In this document: positions 50,818-60,877 of the stretch, in pieces
Layout: every line of letters starts with the position of its first letter
Numbering within the stretch: position 1 is the stretch's first letter
From: an uncultured Fibrobacter sp.
Lineage (GTDB): Bacteria > Fibrobacterota > Fibrobacteria > Fibrobacterales > Fibrobacteraceae
DNA length: 64,000 nucleotides
Assembly (NCBI RefSeq): GCF_947305105.1
Contig: NZ_CAMZCS010000001.1
Span: forward strand, 124,001-188,000
Direction of reading: 5' to 3'
Notes under the pieces: model-generated
The model's input: the letters and a program-made list of their open reading frames with translations, nothing else
What the model was told of the DNA's origin: nothing
The model's database searches: none
Made by a program: the position numbers and the translations under genes

Positions 50818-52878
50818 TTAAAGCCCGTGTTCGAGCGAGTAGTCCGAAATTTTGAGCAAAGTGTCGAGGGTCGCAGACAAGCGACCTTCTTCGTTTTGTA
50901 ATTTCCCGGTGAGCTCGTTTTCTTGGCGCAGGTCGCTGTCGGCAAAGATATGCGTTTCGTCTTGAGAGGGGTACTTCGCGATAAAGCGGTAACCGTCAAG
51001 GCCGATGGCTGCATAGCCCGAGTATGCCCCGAGGGAAAGCCCTGCCAGTTCGTGCGGCTCCGGAACGCTTGCGGAATCAGTCGAGTCTGTCGGTGTACTT
51101 GCCAAACCGCCCCTTAACAAGTTGTGCCCCATGAAGATATTGGGCACCGCGAAACCGGCAAGTTCAAGCACGGTGGGCGCAATGTCGATCTGCGATGCGG
51201 GCGTGGTGTCGCGAACGGCGTCAAGGCCTTTGCCGTGGATAAAGAAGGGTATCCAGGTGATGTTCGAGAATCCGCCGCCGCTTATGGTGGAAACGCCGTT
51301 TTCGCCTAGGGGGAATCCGTGGTCGGCCATGATAATCACGTAGGTGTTCTTGTACCATTCCTCGTTTTCGATGGAGTGGATAAAGCGGGCGATTTGCCTG
51401 TCGGCGTAACCCATAGTCACGTTGATGCGTTCCTGCAAAGGCAGATTCTTTTGCTCATCGGTCATGCCGGCCGCGAAGTTGAACGGGTAATGGTTGGAGC
51501 GTGTCATGAGGGTCGCGAGGAAGGGCTTGCCTTCTTTTGCGAGGGTGTCGCGCACGTATTCGATGGCGTTGTCTATGAAGGTGGAGTCGTCTTCCCGGTT
51601 GCGGTTGTAATGCTGTGCCGTGTACCACTTTGCCATCCACACGCCTAGATTATCCCAGGCGGGGTCTGCGGCCGACATATAATGTGTGCTGTAGCCGTTT
51701 TCGGTGAGGGTCGAGACAAAACTTGGGATGGTGACGTGCGCGAGGTCGGTGGCCTGTGCAAGGCGGGAATGGTGGGGGATGCCAAGATGTGTCGAAAGGA
51801 CGCCGCCCGTGGTGGGGACCCCGCTTGTGTGCATGCGCATCCAAACATGGGAATGTGCGGCGAGCGAATCCATGAAGGGCGTTGGGGTGGGCTGGATTTG
51901 TGGGTTCATGTAACCCGTATTTCGGCCACGTTGTGATTCCATGAGCACCAGGACGAAGTTCGGTTTCATCTCGCGCTGGGCCTTGAGCTTTTCGCTGTTC
52001 AGGAGTCCTGCGTTGGGAATGCGGTAGAGCGGGAGCCCATTGCCTTCCTTCGCGTCGGAGAATGTCCAATCGGAATCGCTCTCAATTTTTTGCCACAGGT
52101 TCTGGTAAGCGCTGCGGTACACTCCCAAGTCGGTTTCTGCTAGGCCTTCGACCTTCTTTGCAACAAACAGGTCGTTGTAAACCAGCGATACCACTGGACG
52201 GAGCTTTGTCATGCGGGAGTTGCCGGTCCAGATAACGTAAATGAACAGGTACGAGGCGATGTAGAAAATGATCATCGCAATGACGGATTTTTTTACATAG
52301 AAGCCTTCGCATGGACGGTACCCCTTGCAAAGCAACCTGTAAATTCCGTAAGTCGCCGGGAGCATCAGTGCGAGCACGACGAATTGCAAATAGGGTACGG
52401 AAAGGTCGTTTGCCACGTAATCGTAGAACATGGCGATGGAGGAGGTATCCTTGTATGTGTCGACGAGGCCAAAACTCAGGTGCCCACCTAGAAAGCGCTG
52501 CACTTCGTTATCGAGGAGCGTGAAGGGGAGAATGACCGCATGGAAAGTGGCATAAAGGATAGTCGTGACTTTTGCCACGATTGCGGCGCGGGCCGCCTTG
52601 TTCGATTGCCCGCCGATGATTTTTGCGAGGAGTGCGCCTACGACCACAAAGACGACAAGTGCATTGCAAATCCACAGGAAATCGAGGCAGACCGCATGGA
52701 AAATGAACCAGTCTGGCTTAGATACAAACGGGAATCCGTAGGGGTTGTTGCGGAACAGGAGCATCACGCGGAGCAGAATGTGCATGGCCCATGCTGCAAG
52801 AGAAATCAGCACGAGGTTTTGGAAGGGCGCTAAACTGGCTACCGTTTTTTTCAACAAATTTAAAATAGACGGTTTCAT
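50818..52878 (-). CDS. LTA-synthase-like membrane phosphoglycerol transferase (copy 2)
   Basis: The 686-residue protein has about five N-terminal membrane helices (to about 245) and a periplasmic sulfatase-type domain. Expected active-site parts are VLVLMESQRGRN (Glu, about 310), SGVPTTGGVLSTHLG (nucleophile Thr, about 348) and IIMADHGFPLGENG (metal Asp-His, about 515). It shares architecture with copy 1 but is not a close paralog. The ATG at 52878 has AGGA 7 bases upstream and follows the stop of the GT4 gene by 2 bases. Likely role: adding a phosphoglycerol-type group to a lipid-anchored glycan made by the adjacent GT4. Confidence 0.85.
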   Translation of the reverse strand: MKPSILNLLKKTVASLAPFQNLVLISLAAWAMHILLRVMLLFRNNPYGFPFVSKPDWFIFHAVCLDFLWICNALVVFVVVGALLAKIIGGQSNKAARAAIVAKVTTILYATFHAVILPFTLLDNEVQRFLGGHLSFGLVDTYKDTSSIAMFYDYVANDLSVPYLQFVVLALMLPATYGIYRLLCKGYRPCEGFYVKKSVIAMIIFYIASYLFIYVIWTGNSRMTKLRPVVSLVYNDLFVAKKVEGLAETDLGVYRSAYQNLWQKIESDSDWTFSDAKEGNGLPLYRIPNAGLLNSEKLKAQREMKPNFVLVLMESQRGRNTGYMNPQIQPTPTPFMDSLAAHSHVWMRMHTSGVPTTGGVLSTHLGIPHHSRLAQATDLAHVTIPSFVSTLTENGYSTHYMSAADPAWDNLGVWMAKWYTAQHYNRNREDDSTFIDNAIEYVRDTLAKEGKPFLATLMTRSNHYPFNFAAGMTDEQKNLPLQERINVTMGYADRQIARFIHSIENEEWYKNTYVIIMADHGFPLGENGVSTISGGGFSNITWIPFFIHGKGLDAVRDTTPASQIDIAPTVLELAGFAVPNIFMGHNLLRGGLASTPTDSTDSASVPEPHELAGLSLGAYSGYAAIGLDGYRFIAKYPSQDETHIFADSDLRQENELTGKLQNEEGRLSATLDTLLKISDYSLEHGL

Positions 52879-52880
52879 TC

Positions 52881-54074
52881 TCAATTCCTGTTGCAAATTT
52901 GTCTGTACAGTTCCAGCTGGCGCTTGAAACAGTCGTTCCAGCTGAACTTCTCGGCGTAGGCGCGGGCCTTTTGCTTCATGCTTTGCATGTCGGAACGGTA
53001 AAGTTCCACAATGGCTTCGGCGAGGGATTCGGGGGTGCGCTCCTTGAGGATGGTGCCTGCACCCGATTCGGTCACGTGCTCGAATGCTGCGCCTGCAGCG
53101 GCACCGATCTGGGCGTTTCCGCTGGCCATGCTCTCTAAAATCGAGAGGCCGAAGGTTTCCCAGCCCGACAGGGCGAGCCCCAGGTCTACGCTGGCGTAGT
53201 AGCGGGCCATTTCGTCAACGGAGTTTACAAACCCGATGTAGCGGATATGCTCGTGCTTCTGGACGGCTTCTTGTACCAATGGGAGGCTAGGGCCTGTGCC
53301 TGCGAATACAATGGCAGGCTCGTGGCCGAGTTTTTGCGTGAGGATGTCGTAGGCTCCCAGAACGAGGTCAATCCCCTTTTCCTTGCAGTGCCTGTGCGGG
53401 AAGAACATGGTGAGCCGTTCGGGGTTGCCGGCCTTGAGTTCGGTTACGAGCGATTCATCGCGCTTGCTGGGCGAGAACATCTCGATGTCGCAACCCAGCG
53501 GGATCCAGCGTGGGTCGGGCAGTCCGTTCTTGCGGAGGCGTGCCATGGCCTCCTTGGACGATGCCTGGATGCAGTCAAAGCCTTTGAATTCCTTGCGGGC
53601 GTACCAGAAAGCCTCCTTGCGGGCGAACGTGCCTGCACCGACACCAAGTTTTTTTGCAACGGGGCGACCCACATAGGTCACGGGGAAGTCCGCATGCCAA
53701 AAGCCGACCAATTTGGATTCGGGGCTCACGTGCTTTGCGGCGCGGCGGACAACCGTCGGCAAAATATAGGGGGAACCCACTTCGATGATGTCGGGCTTGT
53801 ACTTGGCAAGTACGGGTTCCACTTGCGAGAGTTTCCATATAAAGCGGTATTCCCAGTTGCCCGGGAACTTGAACGCCTTCACATGTTCAATGACGAGGCT
53901 TTCGCTCTTGACTTCGGTGAATGTCTTGGAATCGGGCATTATGAAGACAGAAAGCGTGCCTTTGTTGCCGTCTTGCTCACAAAGTTTTTCGTAGAAAGCC
54001 ATCTTCTGCAGGTGGTAGCGACGAACGCCGCCACCCGATGGGCTCCAGAAGTTATTTATGTCGACTATGGTCAT
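52881..54074 (-). CDS. GT4-family glycosyltransferase
   Basis: The 397-residue protein starts with NNFWSPSGGGVRRYHLQKM, a typical GT4 donor-loop segment. Domain 2 has FFPHRHCKEKGIDLVLGAYDIL, IGFVNSVDEMARYYASVDLGLALSGWETFGLSILESMASGNAQIG (the EX7E motif runs from WETFG to LESM) and ILKERTPESLAEAIVELY. It should act at the inner membrane on a lipid acceptor. It lies in a three-gene minus-strand run: its ATG overlaps the stop of the primase-helicase-like gene by one base (TAATG), and the phosphoglycerol-transferase-like gene follows after 2 bases. Confidence 0.88.
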   Translation of the reverse strand: MTIVDINNFWSPSGGGVRRYHLQKMAFYEKLCEQDGNKGTLSVFIMPDSKTFTEVKSESLVIEHVKAFKFPGNWEYRFIWKLSQVEPVLAKYKPDIIEVGSPYILPTVVRRAAKHVSPESKLVGFWHADFPVTYVGRPVAKKLGVGAGTFARKEAFWYARKEFKGFDCIQASSKEAMARLRKNGLPDPRWIPLGCDIEMFSPSKRDESLVTELKAGNPERLTMFFPHRHCKEKGIDLVLGAYDILTQKLGHEPAIVFAGTGPSLPLVQEAVQKHEHIRYIGFVNSVDEMARYYASVDLGLALSGWETFGLSILESMASGNAQIGAAAGAAFEHVTESGAGTILKERTPESLAEAIVELYRSDMQSMKQKARAYAEKFSWNDCFKRQLELYRQICNRN

Positions 54075-55960
54075 TATTGGACTTCTTGCATCTTGTTAGA
54101 AAGCTGATCCATTTCCAGGTAGCCTTCGTAGATGTGGTTTGCTCCGAGTCGCTTGGAATTGACGGAGAGGAAGAGGTTCCCGCCCTTGGATTCCAGCCAG
54201 TAGATAGCATCGGAATCGCGCAGATAGGGCCTAGGACCTTCGAGCCCTTGTTCTGCCTGCACCAGTTCACCGCCGAGGAACAGCGGAATGTCGAGCGCTT
54301 TGTAGAGGTCAAGCATGACCGAAGAACGCCGTTCGTGGATGTCGGCAATATCCGGACGGTCGCCGATTTTCATGTGGTCGATGCCGTCGATGATGACGAC
54401 CAGGTCGGGGTGTTCCTTTTGCTCGTCTTTCAAGACAGAGAGCATTTCCGTGTTGTCGAACGAGGGTTGGTCTTCCCAAATTTCCAGGCGGTTGTTGCGG
54501 ACGTAGGAGATGAGTTCTTTCGTTGCGTCCAAGATATTGTGGTTCACCTGCTCGTCGGTATTCTGCTTTCTTACGGTGAGCACGGATTCGCCAATCATCA
54601 TCGCAACGAGCCTGTCAAAGATTTGGCGGCGAGGTGTTTCCAGTGCGATATAGATGAGTTTGAGTTTGGGGTTGCTCTTGATGAGGTCGAGAGCGAGGCT
54701 CGACAAGAACGTCGTCTTGAGGCCGAACGGTTCTGCGGATACATAGAAACAGCCGGATTGGACGCCGTCGATTTCTTTTGCGAGCCGTGGGAATGACGAA
54801 AGCGTGTAGCCCACGTTCACGTCGGGCGGGCAACCCATGGCCGTGTCAAAGTTTTCCTTGATGTCTTGGAGGAGCATCGAACGGCGGTGGGTGTGAATGG
54901 TGTCTTCTTCGGTATGCGCAATGAGGGAGAGCAGTTCATCTGCTCCGTTCTTGCGCACGACCTGGTCCACGGTCTCGTCTTTGGGGAGGATGATGGACTT
55001 GAACCGGAGCCCGATTTCTTCGGCCATCTTGAGGTAGCGCTGGACGCGGTATTCCTGTGTGCGGCGGTTCGGTTCGCGGCGGAGGATCAGTGTGACAATT
55101 TCGGCACCGCAGGCCTTGAGCTTGAGCAGGTGGCTCTGCGTGACTTCTTGGTACATCGTCGAGACGACTCCGGGAATACCGGCGAGGTCTGCGGTGAGAG
55201 CGTCAAAAAAGCCTTCTACGATGATGGGTTTCTCGTTTTCGGGCTGGATGTTGAAGGGTATGTCGCATGGGCCAGACGCATAAGATACGTAGGCATGGCT
55301 GTGCATGTTGTCGTCGATGAGCCTACCGAAAACGGAATGAATGAGCCCCTTGGAATTGCGTGCGGGGATGGTGATGCGCGGTTCGTGGTAGGCTTCCAAA
55401 TTGTCGAGGTAGAACCGGATCTGGTGGCGCTCGACTCCCGAAAGCAGGCAGTAGCTGGCGAACGGCTCCGGGTCGCCACTGTAGTAGCCGATGCCGTAAA
55501 GTTGAGCCTGGCCAATGTTCCAGCCGCGCTTGGCGAGGTATTCTGCCGAGGACGGGCTTTTGCATGCCGCCCAGTGGCAATAGCGGACAAAGCATTCCAG
55601 AACCTTGGACTTTTCACCGCCGACTTCGCGAATCCAGGGGTGTTCGTCCTGGAACGTGTCGGCCTGTTCCTGTTCTTGCGTCCCGAGGAAATCAATTGCC
55701 TCGGCGCGGGCTGCCGGTTCTTCGAGGCCGTTGAAACGGCTACGCATCACGAATTCGATAAGGTCGCCCTCGCTGCCGCATTGCAGGCAACGGTAGCGCC
55801 AGTAGCCGAGCGCATCGTAGAAGAACAGCGATGTCTCTTCGGGGGCATGGAACGGGCAACAAGCAATCAGGTTGCGGCCCCAGCGGCTCAGTGGGATTCC
55901 CAACTGGCGCGGGTGCGTCTTGGCTTTTATCAGTCCAGCGTGTTCTTGGTCTAGGAGCAT
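54074..55960 (-). CDS. CHC2/TOPRIM/DnaB-like primase-helicase protein with degenerate motifs
   Basis: The 628-residue protein has a DnaG-type zinc finger (Cys35, His38, Cys58, Cys61). A TOPRIM-like domain follows with the first motif intact (IIVEGFFDALTADL, Glu about 245), but the DxD position reads LILRREPNRR, with no acidic pair. The C-terminal RecA-type ATPase resembles DnaB or T7 gp4 helicase. Its Walker A is AEPFGLKT in place of GxxxxGKT (Lys and Thr kept); Walker B is VVIIDGIDHM (about 522). Primer synthesis is therefore doubtful, and the helicase may be altered. The ATG at 55960 has GAGG 7 bases upstream; an extension of 16 codons is unlikely. It is divergent from ruvC. Confidence 0.8.
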   Translation of the reverse strand: MLLDQEHAGLIKAKTHPRQLGIPLSRWGRNLIACCPFHAPEETSLFFYDALGYWRYRCLQCGSEGDLIEFVMRSRFNGLEEPAARAEAIDFLGTQEQEQADTFQDEHPWIREVGGEKSKVLECFVRYCHWAACKSPSSAEYLAKRGWNIGQAQLYGIGYYSGDPEPFASYCLLSGVERHQIRFYLDNLEAYHEPRITIPARNSKGLIHSVFGRLIDDNMHSHAYVSYASGPCDIPFNIQPENEKPIIVEGFFDALTADLAGIPGVVSTMYQEVTQSHLLKLKACGAEIVTLILRREPNRRTQEYRVQRYLKMAEEIGLRFKSIILPKDETVDQVVRKNGADELLSLIAHTEEDTIHTHRRSMLLQDIKENFDTAMGCPPDVNVGYTLSSFPRLAKEIDGVQSGCFYVSAEPFGLKTTFLSSLALDLIKSNPKLKLIYIALETPRRQIFDRLVAMMIGESVLTVRKQNTDEQVNHNILDATKELISYVRNNRLEIWEDQPSFDNTEMLSVLKDEQKEHPDLVVIIDGIDHMKIGDRPDIADIHERRSSVMLDLYKALDIPLFLGGELVQAEQGLEGPRPYLRDSDAIYWLESKGGNLFLSVNSKRLGANHIYEGYLEMDQLSNKMQEVQ

Positions 55961-56066: not shown

Positions 56067-56636
56067 ATGGTTGTTCTTGGGATCGATCCTGGCTCCGTGA
56101 ATACGGGTTACGCCTTTGTCGACGCCTGTGGCTCGAAATTGCAGGTTCTGGAATATGGTGCGCTTCATGCCCCCAAAAACAAGTCCTTCGAAGACCGCCT
56201 TCTGCATATAGTTTCTTCCTTAGAAGAACTCATGGACAAGTACAAGCCCGAAATGCTGGGCATGGAAAGTGCTTTCGTGGCCGTCAACGCCCATAGCGCT
56301 CTTGTTTTGGGCCATGTCCGCGGGGCTATTCTTGTCGCCTGTAAAAAGAGAGGCATGTCTTTTTCGGAGTTCCCGCCATCCACGGTCAAGCAGGCCGTTA
56401 CGGGCAAGGGAAATGCGTCCAAGGAACAGGTGGCCAACATGATTTATGCGAGGTTGGGAATTGCTCCTGAAAAGGTCCTCCTCGATGCGACTGATGCGCT
56501 TGCTATCGCCTGGACCTCCGTTAACCCGAATCCGCTTTCTGAGTTGCTTCATTCAAAGCGCGGGTCCAAAAAACGCCGTGCGACTGTGAATGAATGGAAA
56601 AGCCTGATAGAAAAGATGGGAGGGACATGTCCATGA
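56067..56636 (+). CDS. ruvC: Holliday junction resolvase RuvC
   Basis: The 189-residue endonuclease cuts four-way DNA junctions symmetrically. The four acidic metal ligands are present: Asp7 in LGIDPGS, Glu67 in GMESAF, and Asp140 and Asp143 in LLDATDALA. The C-terminal tail (SKRGSKKRRATVNEW) is basic. AGAAGG lies upstream of the ATG. It overlaps the next gene by ATGA, heading an operon of ruvC, an M15 peptidase and mpaA. ruvA and ruvB are not in the window. Confidence 0.97.
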   Translation: MVVLGIDPGSVNTGYAFVDACGSKLQVLEYGALHAPKNKSFEDRLLHIVSSLEELMDKYKPEMLGMESAFVAVNAHSALVLGHVRGAILVACKKRGMSFSEFPPSTVKQAVTGKGNASKEQVANMIYARLGIAPEKVLLDATDALAIAWTSVNPNPLSELLHSKRGSKKRRATVNEWKSLIEKMGGTCP

Positions 56637-57316
56637 ATCTATCGTCTGCTGACTATTTGCCTTATGGCCTCGGAACACCGGACTTTGCCGATGTTGGCGA
56701 GTACAAAGTTCACCGCGATGTCGTGCCGTACTTGGAAAAGCTCTCCGCCTTGGTGGCCTCGCATGGCTATTCTCTGAGGATTGAATCGGCGTACCGTTCG
56801 TTCGAACGCCAGCTCTCCATCTGGAACCGTAAAGCCAGCGGTAAATTGCCGTTGCTCTCGGCAGAAGGGGTGCCGATGCCAGTCCCGAGCGACGAAGAAG
56901 AGCTGATGTATGCGATTCTCACTTGGTCGGCATTGCCGGGGGCGAGCCGCCATCATCTAGGTACCGACTTGGATGTTGTCGATGCGAATGCCTGCCCCGA
57001 GAATTACGAAGTGCAACTCACGCCTGCCGAATGTGACGGGATGTTCGCTCCGTTCCACTCGTTCTTGGACGAAGTCTTTGGCTCCGGGGAAGAATCCTCG
57101 TTCGGCTTCAATCGAGTGTTTGTCCCGGGCCGTGGGAAAATCCGCCCGGAACGCTGGCACATCGCGCACCTGCCTACGTCGCGCCAATTGCTGGACAACT
57201 TCTCGCTCGACACGCTGCGCCATATTTACGAGAACACGGAAATCGCTTGCAAGCAAGTCATCCTTGCCCGGCTGGATTCTCTCGCCGAAGACTACATCTA
57301 CCCTTACTTTATATGA
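56633..57316 (+). CDS. Cytoplasmic M15-family (VanY/LdcB-like) peptidase
   Basis: The 227-residue protein carries M15B zinc-carboxypeptidase motifs: ESAYRSFERQLSIWN, GASRHHLGTDLDVVD (the SxHxxGxAxD zinc motif with Thr for Ala) and ERWHIAHLP (catalytic region). There is no signal peptide, so it is predicted to act in the cytoplasm. Members trim D-Ala from peptidoglycan stem peptides. The ATG at 56633 is chosen because AGGG lies 8 bases upstream and it forms an ATGA overlap with ruvC. It overlaps mpaA by ATGA too. Together with MpaA it could process recycled tetrapeptides. Confidence 0.85.
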   Translation: MNLSSADYLPYGLGTPDFADVGEYKVHRDVVPYLEKLSALVASHGYSLRIESAYRSFERQLSIWNRKASGKLPLLSAEGVPMPVPSDEEELMYAILTWSALPGASRHHLGTDLDVVDANACPENYEVQLTPAECDGMFAPFHSFLDEVFGSGEESSFGFNRVFVPGRGKIRPERWHIAHLPTSRQLLDNFSLDTLRHIYENTEIACKQVILARLDSLAEDYIYPYFI

Positions 57317-58020
57317 TGACGCTTGACTTTTCTCCTGAGAACCGGGGCATGATTCGCCTGAAGTCCGAGACGTATGGCCGGTCTGTGCTCGGGGCACCCT
57401 TGCTGTATTTCCCGTCTTCGGAGCGTACGGATTTGCTTGTTATAGCCGGAATCCATGGGGAAGAGCCTGAGACGACGTTCCTCCTGAGTCGGGCTTTGCG
57501 CCATTTGCCACAGGCCTTGGAGCATACCGCAGTCGTGCTGTGTGCCAATCCGGACGGAGTGGTTCTCGGAACGCGAGGCAATGTAGCGGGTGTCGACCTC
57601 AACCGGAATTTTCCGACATCGAACTGGAAGCAGGGGTGTATCGGGTCGCGTTCTGTTCTGGAACGTGCTCGCGATACGGAACTTTCTACCGGGACGTGTC
57701 CTGCAAGCGAACCGGAAACCAAATTTTTGCTGGAACTCATCAAGAACTTGCGTCCCAAGTCTATCCTCTCGATCCATGCTCCCCTTGGCTGCCTAGATGC
57801 CCGTGAAAAGACTCCGCTGGTCATTGCCTTGCAGGGGGTGTTTGGGCTACCGTGGGTTCCAGACGTCGGCTATGAGACCCCTGGTAGCCTGGGAACGTGG
57901 TGCAACGAAAACGGCACCGAATGCGTTACCCTTGAATTGCCCAGGATGTCTTTGGAATTGCTGTACGACCGCTATGGGGAAGCCTTCGCGAGATTCCTCG
58001 CAGGCCCCGTTCCGCACTAG
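57313..58020 (+). CDS. mpaA: Murein tripeptide amidase-like M14 peptidase (MpaA-like)
   Basis: The 235-residue protein has M14 zinc-peptidase features: IAGIHGEEPET (HxxE zinc ligands), CANPDGVVLGTRGNVAGVDLNRNFP (substrate-binding DLNRNFP), LSIHAPLG (third zinc ligand) and CVTLELPRM (catalytic Glu). This set fits MpaA, which hydrolyses the gamma-D-Glu to diaminopimelate bond of recycled murein tripeptide in the cytoplasm. There is no signal peptide. It overlaps the M15 gene by ATGA and ends 4 bases inside the convergent pssA. Confidence 0.88.
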   Translation: MMTLDFSPENRGMIRLKSETYGRSVLGAPLLYFPSSERTDLLVIAGIHGEEPETTFLLSRALRHLPQALEHTAVVLCANPDGVVLGTRGNVAGVDLNRNFPTSNWKQGCIGSRSVLERARDTELSTGTCPASEPETKFLLELIKNLRPKSILSIHAPLGCLDAREKTPLVIALQGVFGLPWVPDVGYETPGSLGTWCNENGTECVTLELPRMSLELLYDRYGEAFARFLAGPVPH

Positions 58021-58829
58021 GCCGCTTTTTCTTTTTCTGCCTTGGCTTCGGCGATAATCTTCTTGCGGTTGATAAGACCGATGGCAAGGCCAATGACGAG
58101 ATAGCCGCCAACGAGGAGCAGCAGGTATTCGTACAAGAACGGAATGGTATCTGTGACAAAGAAGAATGCGCAGAAGTAGGTAATGACGATAAGTACCGCT
58201 TGTGCCGTATTGAACAGCTTGTTCTTGCGCGGCTGGAGCTTTGGCAGGAACAAGGGGCTTACCATCAGAATGCCCGTGACAAACAGGATGGCGACGGGGA
58301 GGTACAGCGCAGCGGATTCCGCTCCGTCAAACAGGCCACGGGACTTGAAGAACACGATGGTGATGGCGTTGATGGCTCCGGCGAATGTCGACGGAACGCC
58401 AGAAAAATGGTGGTGGTAGGTATCCGAGTCCATCGCGTTGTACTTGGCGAGGCGCATGGCTGCACAGAGTACGTAGATGCTGAACACGACGATCAGGAGT
58501 GCAAAGTGGGACTGGAACCAGTTGGGCGCGAAACCGCGGTAGGTGTAGAAAATGCAGAATGCGGGAGCAATGCCGAAGGCAATCAGGTCGGCAAGGCTGT
58601 CGAATTGAGCCCCGAACTCGGAGCTGGCGTTGACCAGGCGTGCGGCGAAACCGTCGAGTTTGTCAAAGAGAACGCAGAGCAAAATGAAATAAGCGCTCAT
58701 ACGTATGTAGTCCGTTCCCGGTGCCGTAATGGTATCGAAGGATCCCGTTGCCCAGCAAATGGCAAAAACGCCGAGCATGAAGTTAAGACTTGTAAATGCG
58801 TTCGGGAAAATATAGCGTAACTTGTTCAC
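58017..58829 (-). CDS. pssA: CDP-diacylglycerol--serine O-phosphatidyltransferase
   Basis: The 270-residue inner-membrane enzyme makes phosphatidylserine, the precursor of phosphatidylethanolamine. The CDP-alcohol phosphotransferase motif DxxDGxxARx8GxxxDxxxD is complete, running from FDKLDGFAARLVN to FDSLADLIAFG. Several membrane helices follow and the C-terminus is charged (KKIIAEAKAEKEKAA). The start is taken as GTG 58829 with AAGGAG upstream; an ATG 18 codons earlier is less likely. Its 3' end overlaps mpaA by 4 bases. Confidence 0.92.
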   Translation of the reverse strand: MNKLRYIFPNAFTSLNFMLGVFAICWATGSFDTITAPGTDYIRMSAYFILLCVLFDKLDGFAARLVNASSEFGAQFDSLADLIAFGIAPAFCIFYTYRGFAPNWFQSHFALLIVVFSIYVLCAAMRLAKYNAMDSDTYHHHFSGVPSTFAGAINAITIVFFKSRGLFDGAESAALYLPVAILFVTGILMVSPLFLPKLQPRKNKLFNTAQAVLIVITYFCAFFFVTDTIPFLYEYLLLLVGGYLVIGLAIGLINRKKIIAEAKAEKEKAA

Positions 58830-58881
58830 GGGGTCTCCTTTGTAGGACTGCTTCAAAAATATAAAAAAAATTGGACAGAAC

Positions 58882-58912
58882 AAAAAAAAGGCATCCGAGT
58901 GGATGTCTTTTT
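58882..58912 (-). terminator. Terminator of the solute-binding protein gene
   Basis: On the minus strand GACATCC-ACTC-GGATGCC with flanking A and T runs (one A-C mismatch), followed by eight T. It lies 29 bases after the stop at 58941. Confidence 0.8.
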
Positions 58913-58940
58913 GAAGAAAAATTAATAGGAAACTCTGCTC

Positions 58941-60704
58941 TTATTTTACAGGCTTTATGCTCCACAGGGCGTTGACACCTGCAGCGACAATCAGGTGCTG
59001 CGGCGGTGCGTAGGGATTCTCTTCGGTCGGGAAGTTTGTCCAGTGCTTGGTGGAGAACTGGTAGTACTGCGTGGGCCTGTAGAGGATCGGCATAACAGGA
59101 ACCGTTTCCATGAAAATCTTGTTAAGCTCACGATAATCGGCGATGAGCTTTTCTTCGTCGGTCTCGGCCGGAATCCGGGCAAGGAGCTCGTCAGCCTGTT
59201 CGTTCTGGTAACGGCCCTGGTTTGCGAAGGCGTCTTCGCCGGCGGGCTTGTAAGACACAGAACCCATGACCTGGTCGAAACGGGTCCAAGGGGTCGCTGC
59301 GGAAAGTTCGGCGGTCTGCGTCTTCATGGAGAAGTCGAAGGTCCCGAGGCGGAGGTCCTTGTCCCATACGCCGTAGTCTACGAACTTTTGCTCGGCGGTG
59401 ATACCGATTTCCTTGAAGGATTCCGAGATGACCTTGATGGCGTCTTCCCAGTCGGTCCAGCCTTGCGGGCATTCAATAGTGAAAGAGCGGACGGGCTGTT
59501 GGTTCGGGTCGATGAGTTTTCCCTTGTCGTCCCAGCTGTAGCCGGCTTCGGCGAGAATGGCTTTTGCCTTGTCGGTATTGTAGCTATACCCGTAGTTGGC
59601 CGCGTCGTCCTTGTTGAAGAACTTGGATTCGGAACCGAACGGGAGGATGAAGCCGGGCTGCATTGCCGGAGTGTAGTTGGAAACTGCGCGAGCCTTGATT
59701 TTCTCGAAGTTGATGGAGTGCATCATGGCGCGGCGGAGGACAACATCGTTAAGCGGGGGATTGTTGTGCGCCACAATGAGCGTCGTGATGGATCCGGGCT
59801 GGTGGAAGGGCTCTTCGCGGCTCCAGGCACGGATGCTGTCTTTTGCCTTTTCCCAAATGCGCGGCAAGAAGATGGACGAAATGTCGAGGTTGCCCCTGGT
59901 CATGGCGCTGTTGAAATGGTTGTTGCCATTGTACAGGGAGTGGATGATGAACTTGGGGGCGGGCTTCTTGCCGTCGTGCTTCACGTTACCCCAGTAGTTG
60001 TCGTTCCTTTCAAGGACAATCTTGTCGGGGGAGTAGGTCTTGAGGTTGTACGGGCCTGAGACAACAGGGTGGTTGTCGTTCTTGAATTCCGTAACCTTGG
60101 CCATGTCGTAGGTGTCGCCTTTCTTAGCCGCATTGATAATGGGCTCGAAAATGGCCTTGGGGAGTATGGACGTTTCGGCAATGGCGTTCAACAGGATGAG
60201 GGGATTCTTGTTTTCGGAGAAATTGAACGTGACGACTTTGCCGTTGGTGGTGATGCTCGAAATGTAGTTCCAGTTGTCATGGCGTGGAGTCGGCAGCAGG
60301 GAATCTATGCGGAAACTGTAGATGACATCATCCACGGTCACCGGTTTGCCGTCGCTCCATTTTGCTCTGGAATCCAGTGTGACGCTGATGGAGTTCTCGT
60401 TCTGGGAGAAACTTTCCGCGAGCATCGGTTCCAATTTTCCAGTGAGTTGGTTGTAGGTGACCAACGTCTCGTACATGACGCGGACATTCCCGTCGATGGG
60501 GAAGTTCGGGTCGTAGTCCAACGGGTTGAATGTAGTCGGTGGTGCCCAGTCAAAACCACCGATGTACAATGTCTCATTGCGGGGGTATTCTGAATCACCT
60601 GCGGTAACGGTTTCCTTTTCTTCTTGGCATGCGACAAGTGCCACTACGGACGCGACCGCGGCCGTCTTGAACAAAAAATTGCGGACTATAATTGACTGGC
60701 TCAT
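58941..60704 (-). CDS. Periplasmic oligopeptide/nickel-type substrate-binding lipoprotein (SBP family 5)
   Basis: The 587-residue protein has a lipoprotein signal ending ALVACQ. The SBP_bac_5 fold follows: LAESFSQNENSISVTLDSRAKWSDGKPVTVDDVIYSF near residue 110, with YNNNHF, LRRAMMHSINFEKI and YSYNTDKAKAILAEAGY further on. Such proteins bind peptides, murein peptides or metal chelates and deliver them to ABC permeases. No permease or ATPase gene is in the window. GGGGA lies before the ATG at 60704; the next upstream ATG, 8 codons earlier, is less likely. Confidence 0.9.
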   Translation of the reverse strand: MSQSIIVRNFLFKTAAVASVVALVACQEEKETVTAGDSEYPRNETLYIGGFDWAPPTTFNPLDYDPNFPIDGNVRVMYETLVTYNQLTGKLEPMLAESFSQNENSISVTLDSRAKWSDGKPVTVDDVIYSFRIDSLLPTPRHDNWNYISSITTNGKVVTFNFSENKNPLILLNAIAETSILPKAIFEPIINAAKKGDTYDMAKVTEFKNDNHPVVSGPYNLKTYSPDKIVLERNDNYWGNVKHDGKKPAPKFIIHSLYNGNNHFNSAMTRGNLDISSIFLPRIWEKAKDSIRAWSREEPFHQPGSITTLIVAHNNPPLNDVVLRRAMMHSINFEKIKARAVSNYTPAMQPGFILPFGSESKFFNKDDAANYGYSYNTDKAKAILAEAGYSWDDKGKLIDPNQQPVRSFTIECPQGWTDWEDAIKVISESFKEIGITAEQKFVDYGVWDKDLRLGTFDFSMKTQTAELSAATPWTRFDQVMGSVSYKPAGEDAFANQGRYQNEQADELLARIPAETDEEKLIADYRELNKIFMETVPVMPILYRPTQYYQFSTKHWTNFPTEENPYAPPQHLIVAAGVNALWSIKPVK

Positions 60705-60877
60705 AAAATCCCCAAATATTATTTCCATAAAGATAGTGATATTTTTAAGAAAAATACAATAAATTTTTATTAACAGGCCATATAAGGTGCTTGTTTTGCC
60801 CGTTTTTAACCAAAAGTATATTTTTGTTTGGAATGTTTTACTTTGGATGCACCAAGTTGTGGCTTAAATGGGCTCTG

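Follow-up and report, generated by a model that had tools for sequence, protein, structure and literature searches.

A predicted primase-helicase-like pseudoenzyme with an invariant zinc finger in the family Fibrobacteraceae

We describe a 628-amino-acid protein of an uncultured Fibrobacter sp., encoded in a 64,000-nucleotide stretch of DNA that was analyzed as a whole (here called the window). With slightly better than even confidence, we regard it as a vertically inherited, doubly inactivated pseudoenzyme of the gp4/Twinkle type, which is kept as a nonenzymatic, zinc-finger-led scaffold for nucleic acid binding. At both active sites, the residues found argue strongly for a loss of catalysis. 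Automatic annotation would name the protein a DNA primase or a DnaB-like helicase, and it is very probably neither; it deserves the label "primase-helicase-like pseudoenzyme," not "DNA primase."

Results

The open reading frame lies on the minus strand (54074 to 55960, with the ATG at 55960 and a TAA stop ending at 54074) and is backed by Pfam matches and orthologues. Its domains, all on the same strand, are a CHC2 zinc-binding domain (residues 21 to 80; 55721 to 55900), a DnaG-type RNAP N-terminal subdomain assigned by family profile and structure alignment (residues 117 to 243; 55232 to 55612), a TOPRIM-like domain (residues 244 to 352; 54905 to 55231), a strongly conserved linker that includes HTHRRSMLLQDIKEN (residues 353 to 386; 54803 to 54904; dN/dS, 0.03), and a DnaB/gp4-type RecA-fold domain (residues 387 to 628; 54077 to 54802). 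The single chain thus unites a zinc finger, an RNAP/TOPRIM region, and a RecA-type ATPase, as in gp4 and Twinkle. Pfam detected Zn_ribbon_DnaG (2.1e-9) and DnaB_C (1.8e-6), and the TOPRIM match was only subthreshold. The protein fell below the NCBIfam cutoff of the dnaG equivalog model (87.7 bits versus 283.6; best stretch, residues 22 to 218) and below that of the DnaB equivalog model (24.3 bits versus 385). An assembly error or frameshift as the source of the frame is ruled out by 85 distinct intact relatives, one of which is in a one-contig genome (G070).

Residues were mapped by aligning a 32-member profile to solved structures. Residues 23 to 351 aligned with Aquifex DnaG (6.9e-11) and residues 388 to 588 with Vibrio cholerae DnaB (6.9e-6); hhalign gave no usable alignment with the DnaB proteins of the phylum, and an HMM alignment to PDB DnaB was taken instead. 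The segment LMFDGDFAG of Staphylococcus aureus DnaG aligned with LILRREPNR of the window protein (LILRREPNRR spans residues 291 to 300), which places R294, R295, and E296 at the first Asp, the glycine, and the second Asp of the DxD metal site (i.e., RRE at 294 to 296). A first-pass annotation had proposed that the acidic pair was lost here. That proposal holds for the first Asp, which is a clear loss; the second is usually replaced conservatively by Glu. The DPD motif reads TVD (T330 to D332), while EGFFD is kept at residues 249 to 253 (i.e., E249 and D253). The DnaB segment AARPSMGKT aligned with SAEPFGLKT, so that Walker A is AEPFGLKT (residues 409 to 416), with A409 and L414 in place of the glycines and with K415 and T416 retained, and the Walker B Asp is D525. 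The readings of Walker A and Walker B in the first-pass annotation were therefore correct, as was that of an intact zinc finger (C35, H38, C58, and C61). The degradation of the ATPase, judged by these motifs, goes beyond the loss of primase function that it had emphasized and makes the protein a predicted double pseudoenzyme.

The same state recurs in the 85 distinct relatives surveyed, which extend down to 34% identity. Every relative (85/85) has the full set of four zinc ligands, and none (0/85) has an intact DxD. The TOPRIM Glu, described in the first-pass annotation as kept, is so in the window protein and in 73/85 relatives, but it is replaced in the other 12 (Gln in 10, Ser in 1, and Pro in 1); the metal site expected of DnaG, consisting of this Glu and DxD, is thus not conserved. 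An intact Walker A motif (GxxxxGK[T/S]), as expected of a helicase, was likewise found in 0/85 relatives, and neither glycine of the pair is present in any of them. L119 and L120, the members that diverge most (41% and 34% identity, respectively), carry the same altered sites. Relatives with standard motifs, which would count against inactivation, were not found in this set.

An active enzyme with nonstandard sites, in which E249, D253, E296, and D332 would bind metal and a variant P-loop would bind nucleotide, is improbable in our judgment. Such an enzyme would fit the near-constant retention of D253 (85/85), K415 (84/85; Ser in one), and D525 (85/85) and of Glu or Asp at residue 296 (80/85). 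However, the first DxD Asp is Arg in 82/85 relatives, E249 is among the residues replaced, and the residue preceding the Walker A Lys is Leu, Phe, Tyr, His, or Asp and never Gly. In addition, the catalytic Glu of the ATPase is replaced in some lineages (Asp in 7 relatives and Lys in 1), as is the arginine finger (Asn or Ile in 9). Such lineage-dependent variation at catalytic positions is as expected if catalysis were not under selection. Because the Walker A Lys, the Walker B Asp, and D253 are retained, some binding of nucleotide or metal may persist.

Within the RNAP N-terminal subdomain, R201, N202, and K204 are invariant among the 32 aligned members, and the positions of the Lys (residue 223) and Asn of the DnaG KYxN motif are not conserved. 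The net charge is -1 for the zinc domain and -11 for the ATPase domain. Because the zinc domain carries no net positive charge, the ATPase is acidic, and the KYxN positions vary, nucleic acid binding may be weakened or lost.

An AlphaFold2 model built from the family alignment had a mean pLDDT of 80.5 and a pTM of 0.63, and the zinc-finger stretch was modeled less confidently (about 53 to 69 per block; residues 11 to 60). The top Foldseek matches in the PDB were human Twinkle (2.9e-15) and T7 gp4 (4.5e-15), followed by Aquifex DnaG (1.1e-13) and DnaB (about 1e-11), in agreement with the architecture proposed in the first-pass annotation. Full-length TM-scores were modest (0.3 to 0.4) and rmsd values were large, as would be expected when a chain has several domains whose placement is uncertain; the fold was assigned domain by domain.

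A full-length member was found in 72/72 Fibrobacter genomes and in 15 genomes from other Fibrobacteraceae genera. None was found in genus g20 (10 genomes), in the single g24 genome (73% complete), in one g16 genome (71% complete), or in two sampled genomes from another family of the order. Elsewhere in the phylum, only short matches to the DnaG region were detected. In the rpoB tree, g20 is sister to the remaining Fibrobacteraceae genera with moderate support (83/79) and long branches; a single gain after the g20 split and a single early loss in g20 both fit this distribution. No relevant publication on a primase-like protein specific to Fibrobacter turned up in a literature search.

The gene is functional and under strong purifying selection: the overall dN/dS is about 0.085, and internal stops are absent. 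By part, dN/dS is 0.029 for the zinc domain, 0.032 for the linker, 0.069 for the RNAP N-terminal subdomain, 0.10 for TOPRIM, and 0.106 for the ATPase (medians over 25 pairs; with dS near 1, these are only rough as absolute values). Constraint is therefore strongest in the zinc finger and linker. Since the frame and its motif state are conserved in 85 distinct relatives under such selection, they are not due to chance. The pseudoenzyme is also more conserved than the neighboring ruvC in nearly all loci.

Its fold resembles that of phage primase-helicases, which would suit a functionless phage replication gene that was once integrated and is now decaying. We regard such a relic as highly improbable, given the low dN/dS, the uninterrupted frame, and the essentially single-copy occurrence of the gene in the same syntenic position throughout the family. 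The neighborhood is a core chromosomal one with no phage genes alongside, as the first-pass annotation had observed. Among phages and plasmids, only matches to the DnaG region were found, none of the records reached 80% query coverage, and a scan of viral contigs gave no match. A prophage remnant is ruled out by this conserved core synteny and by the lack of full-length relatives in phages, plasmids, and viral contigs.

The host genome encodes a canonical DnaG (VEGYFD, FDGD, and DPD), a canonical DnaB (ARPGVGKT, SLEM, IDYLQ, and KHRNG), and the loader DciA. Replication catalysis is thus independent of the pseudoenzyme, and its service as a substitute for DnaG or DnaB is ruled out. DciA was detected in 14 of the 15 genomes tested, irrespective of the presence of the pseudoenzyme, so that the filling of a gap left by a missing loader is not supported either. 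Of the roles suggested in the first-pass annotation (sensor, loader, or regulator), all of them hypothetical, that of a loader is not needed by default. A search with the loader model PF01695 returned many weak AAA+ matches. The genome also encodes a third CHC2 protein (372 amino acids; primase-like; locus L003, 661 to 1779, minus strand; contig C16 of genome G000), in which the TOPRIM motifs are apparently intact (CEGVVD and LDKDDAG) and which adjoins an Ogt-like methyltransferase gene.

Pseudosubunits commonly regulate active paralogues, and the folds of the pseudoenzyme are common to both host DnaG and host DnaB. It could accordingly be a replisome adaptor that coassembles or competes with these two proteins and tunes priming or helicase activity. 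The divergent neighbor ruvC (56067 to 56636, plus strand), which is context and not necessarily a partner, is found in 64/64 loci of the genome collection and fits such a role. However, the two most divergent members have lost the adjacency to ruvC, the pseudoenzyme gene is unlinked to dnaG, dnaB, and dciA in the host (i.e., on separate contigs or at a distance of about 90 kb), and the standard loader occurs with or without it; we consider an adaptor unlikely. In the window, ruvC belongs to a block beside the pseudoenzyme (56067 to 60728) that also includes VanY-like carboxypeptidase, MpaA-like amidase, PssA-like, and OppA-like genes and that is kept in nearly all Fibrobacter loci.

The strongest context clue is the linkage to a group-1 glycosyltransferase gene (52881 to 54074, minus strand), which lies directly downstream in every locus examined, including those of the two most divergent members (64/64 loci of the genome collection and 14/14 loci of other genera, the latter partly repeating contigs of the former). 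It is the sole invariant gene partner and is not a nucleic acid gene, which counts against a nucleic acid scaffold. In the window, the pseudoenzyme stop and the glycosyltransferase ATG overlap as TAATG. Among curated entries, the glycosyltransferase matches N-acetylglucosaminyl-phosphatidylglycerol synthase best, with a score of 185.7 bits that does not reach the cutoff of 480. Together with an order that is kept while all else moves, these features would suit a partner or regulator of the glycosyltransferase, and hence of a pathway for envelope glycolipids or glycans, with the fold reused as a scaffold only. This role is doubtful, somewhat more so than that of a replisome adaptor: g20 lacks the pseudoenzyme yet has the glycosyltransferase, and the glycosyltransferase seems to have been exchanged between lineages while the pseudoenzyme was not (91% versus 76% identity; L058 and L061). 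In g20, an RNase H1 gene precedes the glycosyltransferase; no diverged pseudoenzyme copy was found upstream. The RNase H1 of these loci (L137 to L142) carries a Cauli_VI/RNase H1 N-terminal domain.

The glycosyltransferase gene is followed in the window by a sulfatase/LTA-synthase-like gene (cassette, 50818 to 54074); only some of the loci have the sulfatase gene in this adjacent position. The cassette looks swapped between lineages in L058, L061, and L046, with sulfatase identities of 83 to 84%.

Discussion

The favored reading (i.e., a nonenzymatic scaffold) would begin with a primase-helicase like T7 gp4 or Twinkle, or with a comparable fusion of DnaG-N and DnaB-C, gained once in Fibrobacteraceae. 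Primer synthesis and ATP-driven unwinding would both have been lost, and from the motifs we infer that primase and helicase activities are absent. Single-stranded DNA or RNA may be contacted by the CHC2 finger and by the DnaG-type N-terminal subdomain; binding through the zinc finger is predicted on the model of DnaG and of human Twinkle, whose N-terminal domain binds DNA although it is primase-dead. The dead RecA domain could provide a surface for oligomerization or protein docking, and the pseudoenzyme is presumed to oligomerize. A combined role, as a family-wide, core nonreplicative nucleic acid sensor or scaffold functionally tied to envelope glycolipid synthesis through the next gene, seems to us improbable.

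So clear a case of a replication-machinery pseudoenzyme is rare in bacteria, i.e., single copy, syntenic, under purifying selection, and altered at both sites, with an invariant zinc finger and with intact DnaG and DnaB alongside. This protein uncouples primer synthesis from whatever else the zinc finger and primase fold do, and it offers a defined knockout target in important cellulose-degrading gut bacteria.

Among known systems, bacterial DnaG is alignable over residues 23 to 351 and shares the CHC2 ligands, whereas the Fibrobacter protein has altered DxD and DPD motifs and a DnaB_C-like domain in place of the helicase-binding C terminus. Compared with the replicative helicase DnaB, alignable over residues 388 to 588, it lacks the N-terminal domain and, in all members, the Walker A glycines. 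T7 gp4 has the same domain order (i.e., CHC2 zinc finger, RNAP/TOPRIM, linker, and RecA-type ATPase) but is active in both halves, and the identity in the fold alignment is about 15%. The closest PDB fold is metazoan mitochondrial Twinkle (human TWNK), which likewise combines a gp4-like architecture with an inactivated primase domain. In Twinkle, both the zinc-binding domain and the metal site are mutated, and the primase-dead N-terminal domain has DNA-binding activity (PMC9860392). In contrast, the zinc finger of the Fibrobacter family is invariant, and while Twinkle is a working ring helicase, the ATPase of the Fibrobacter protein is degraded as well.
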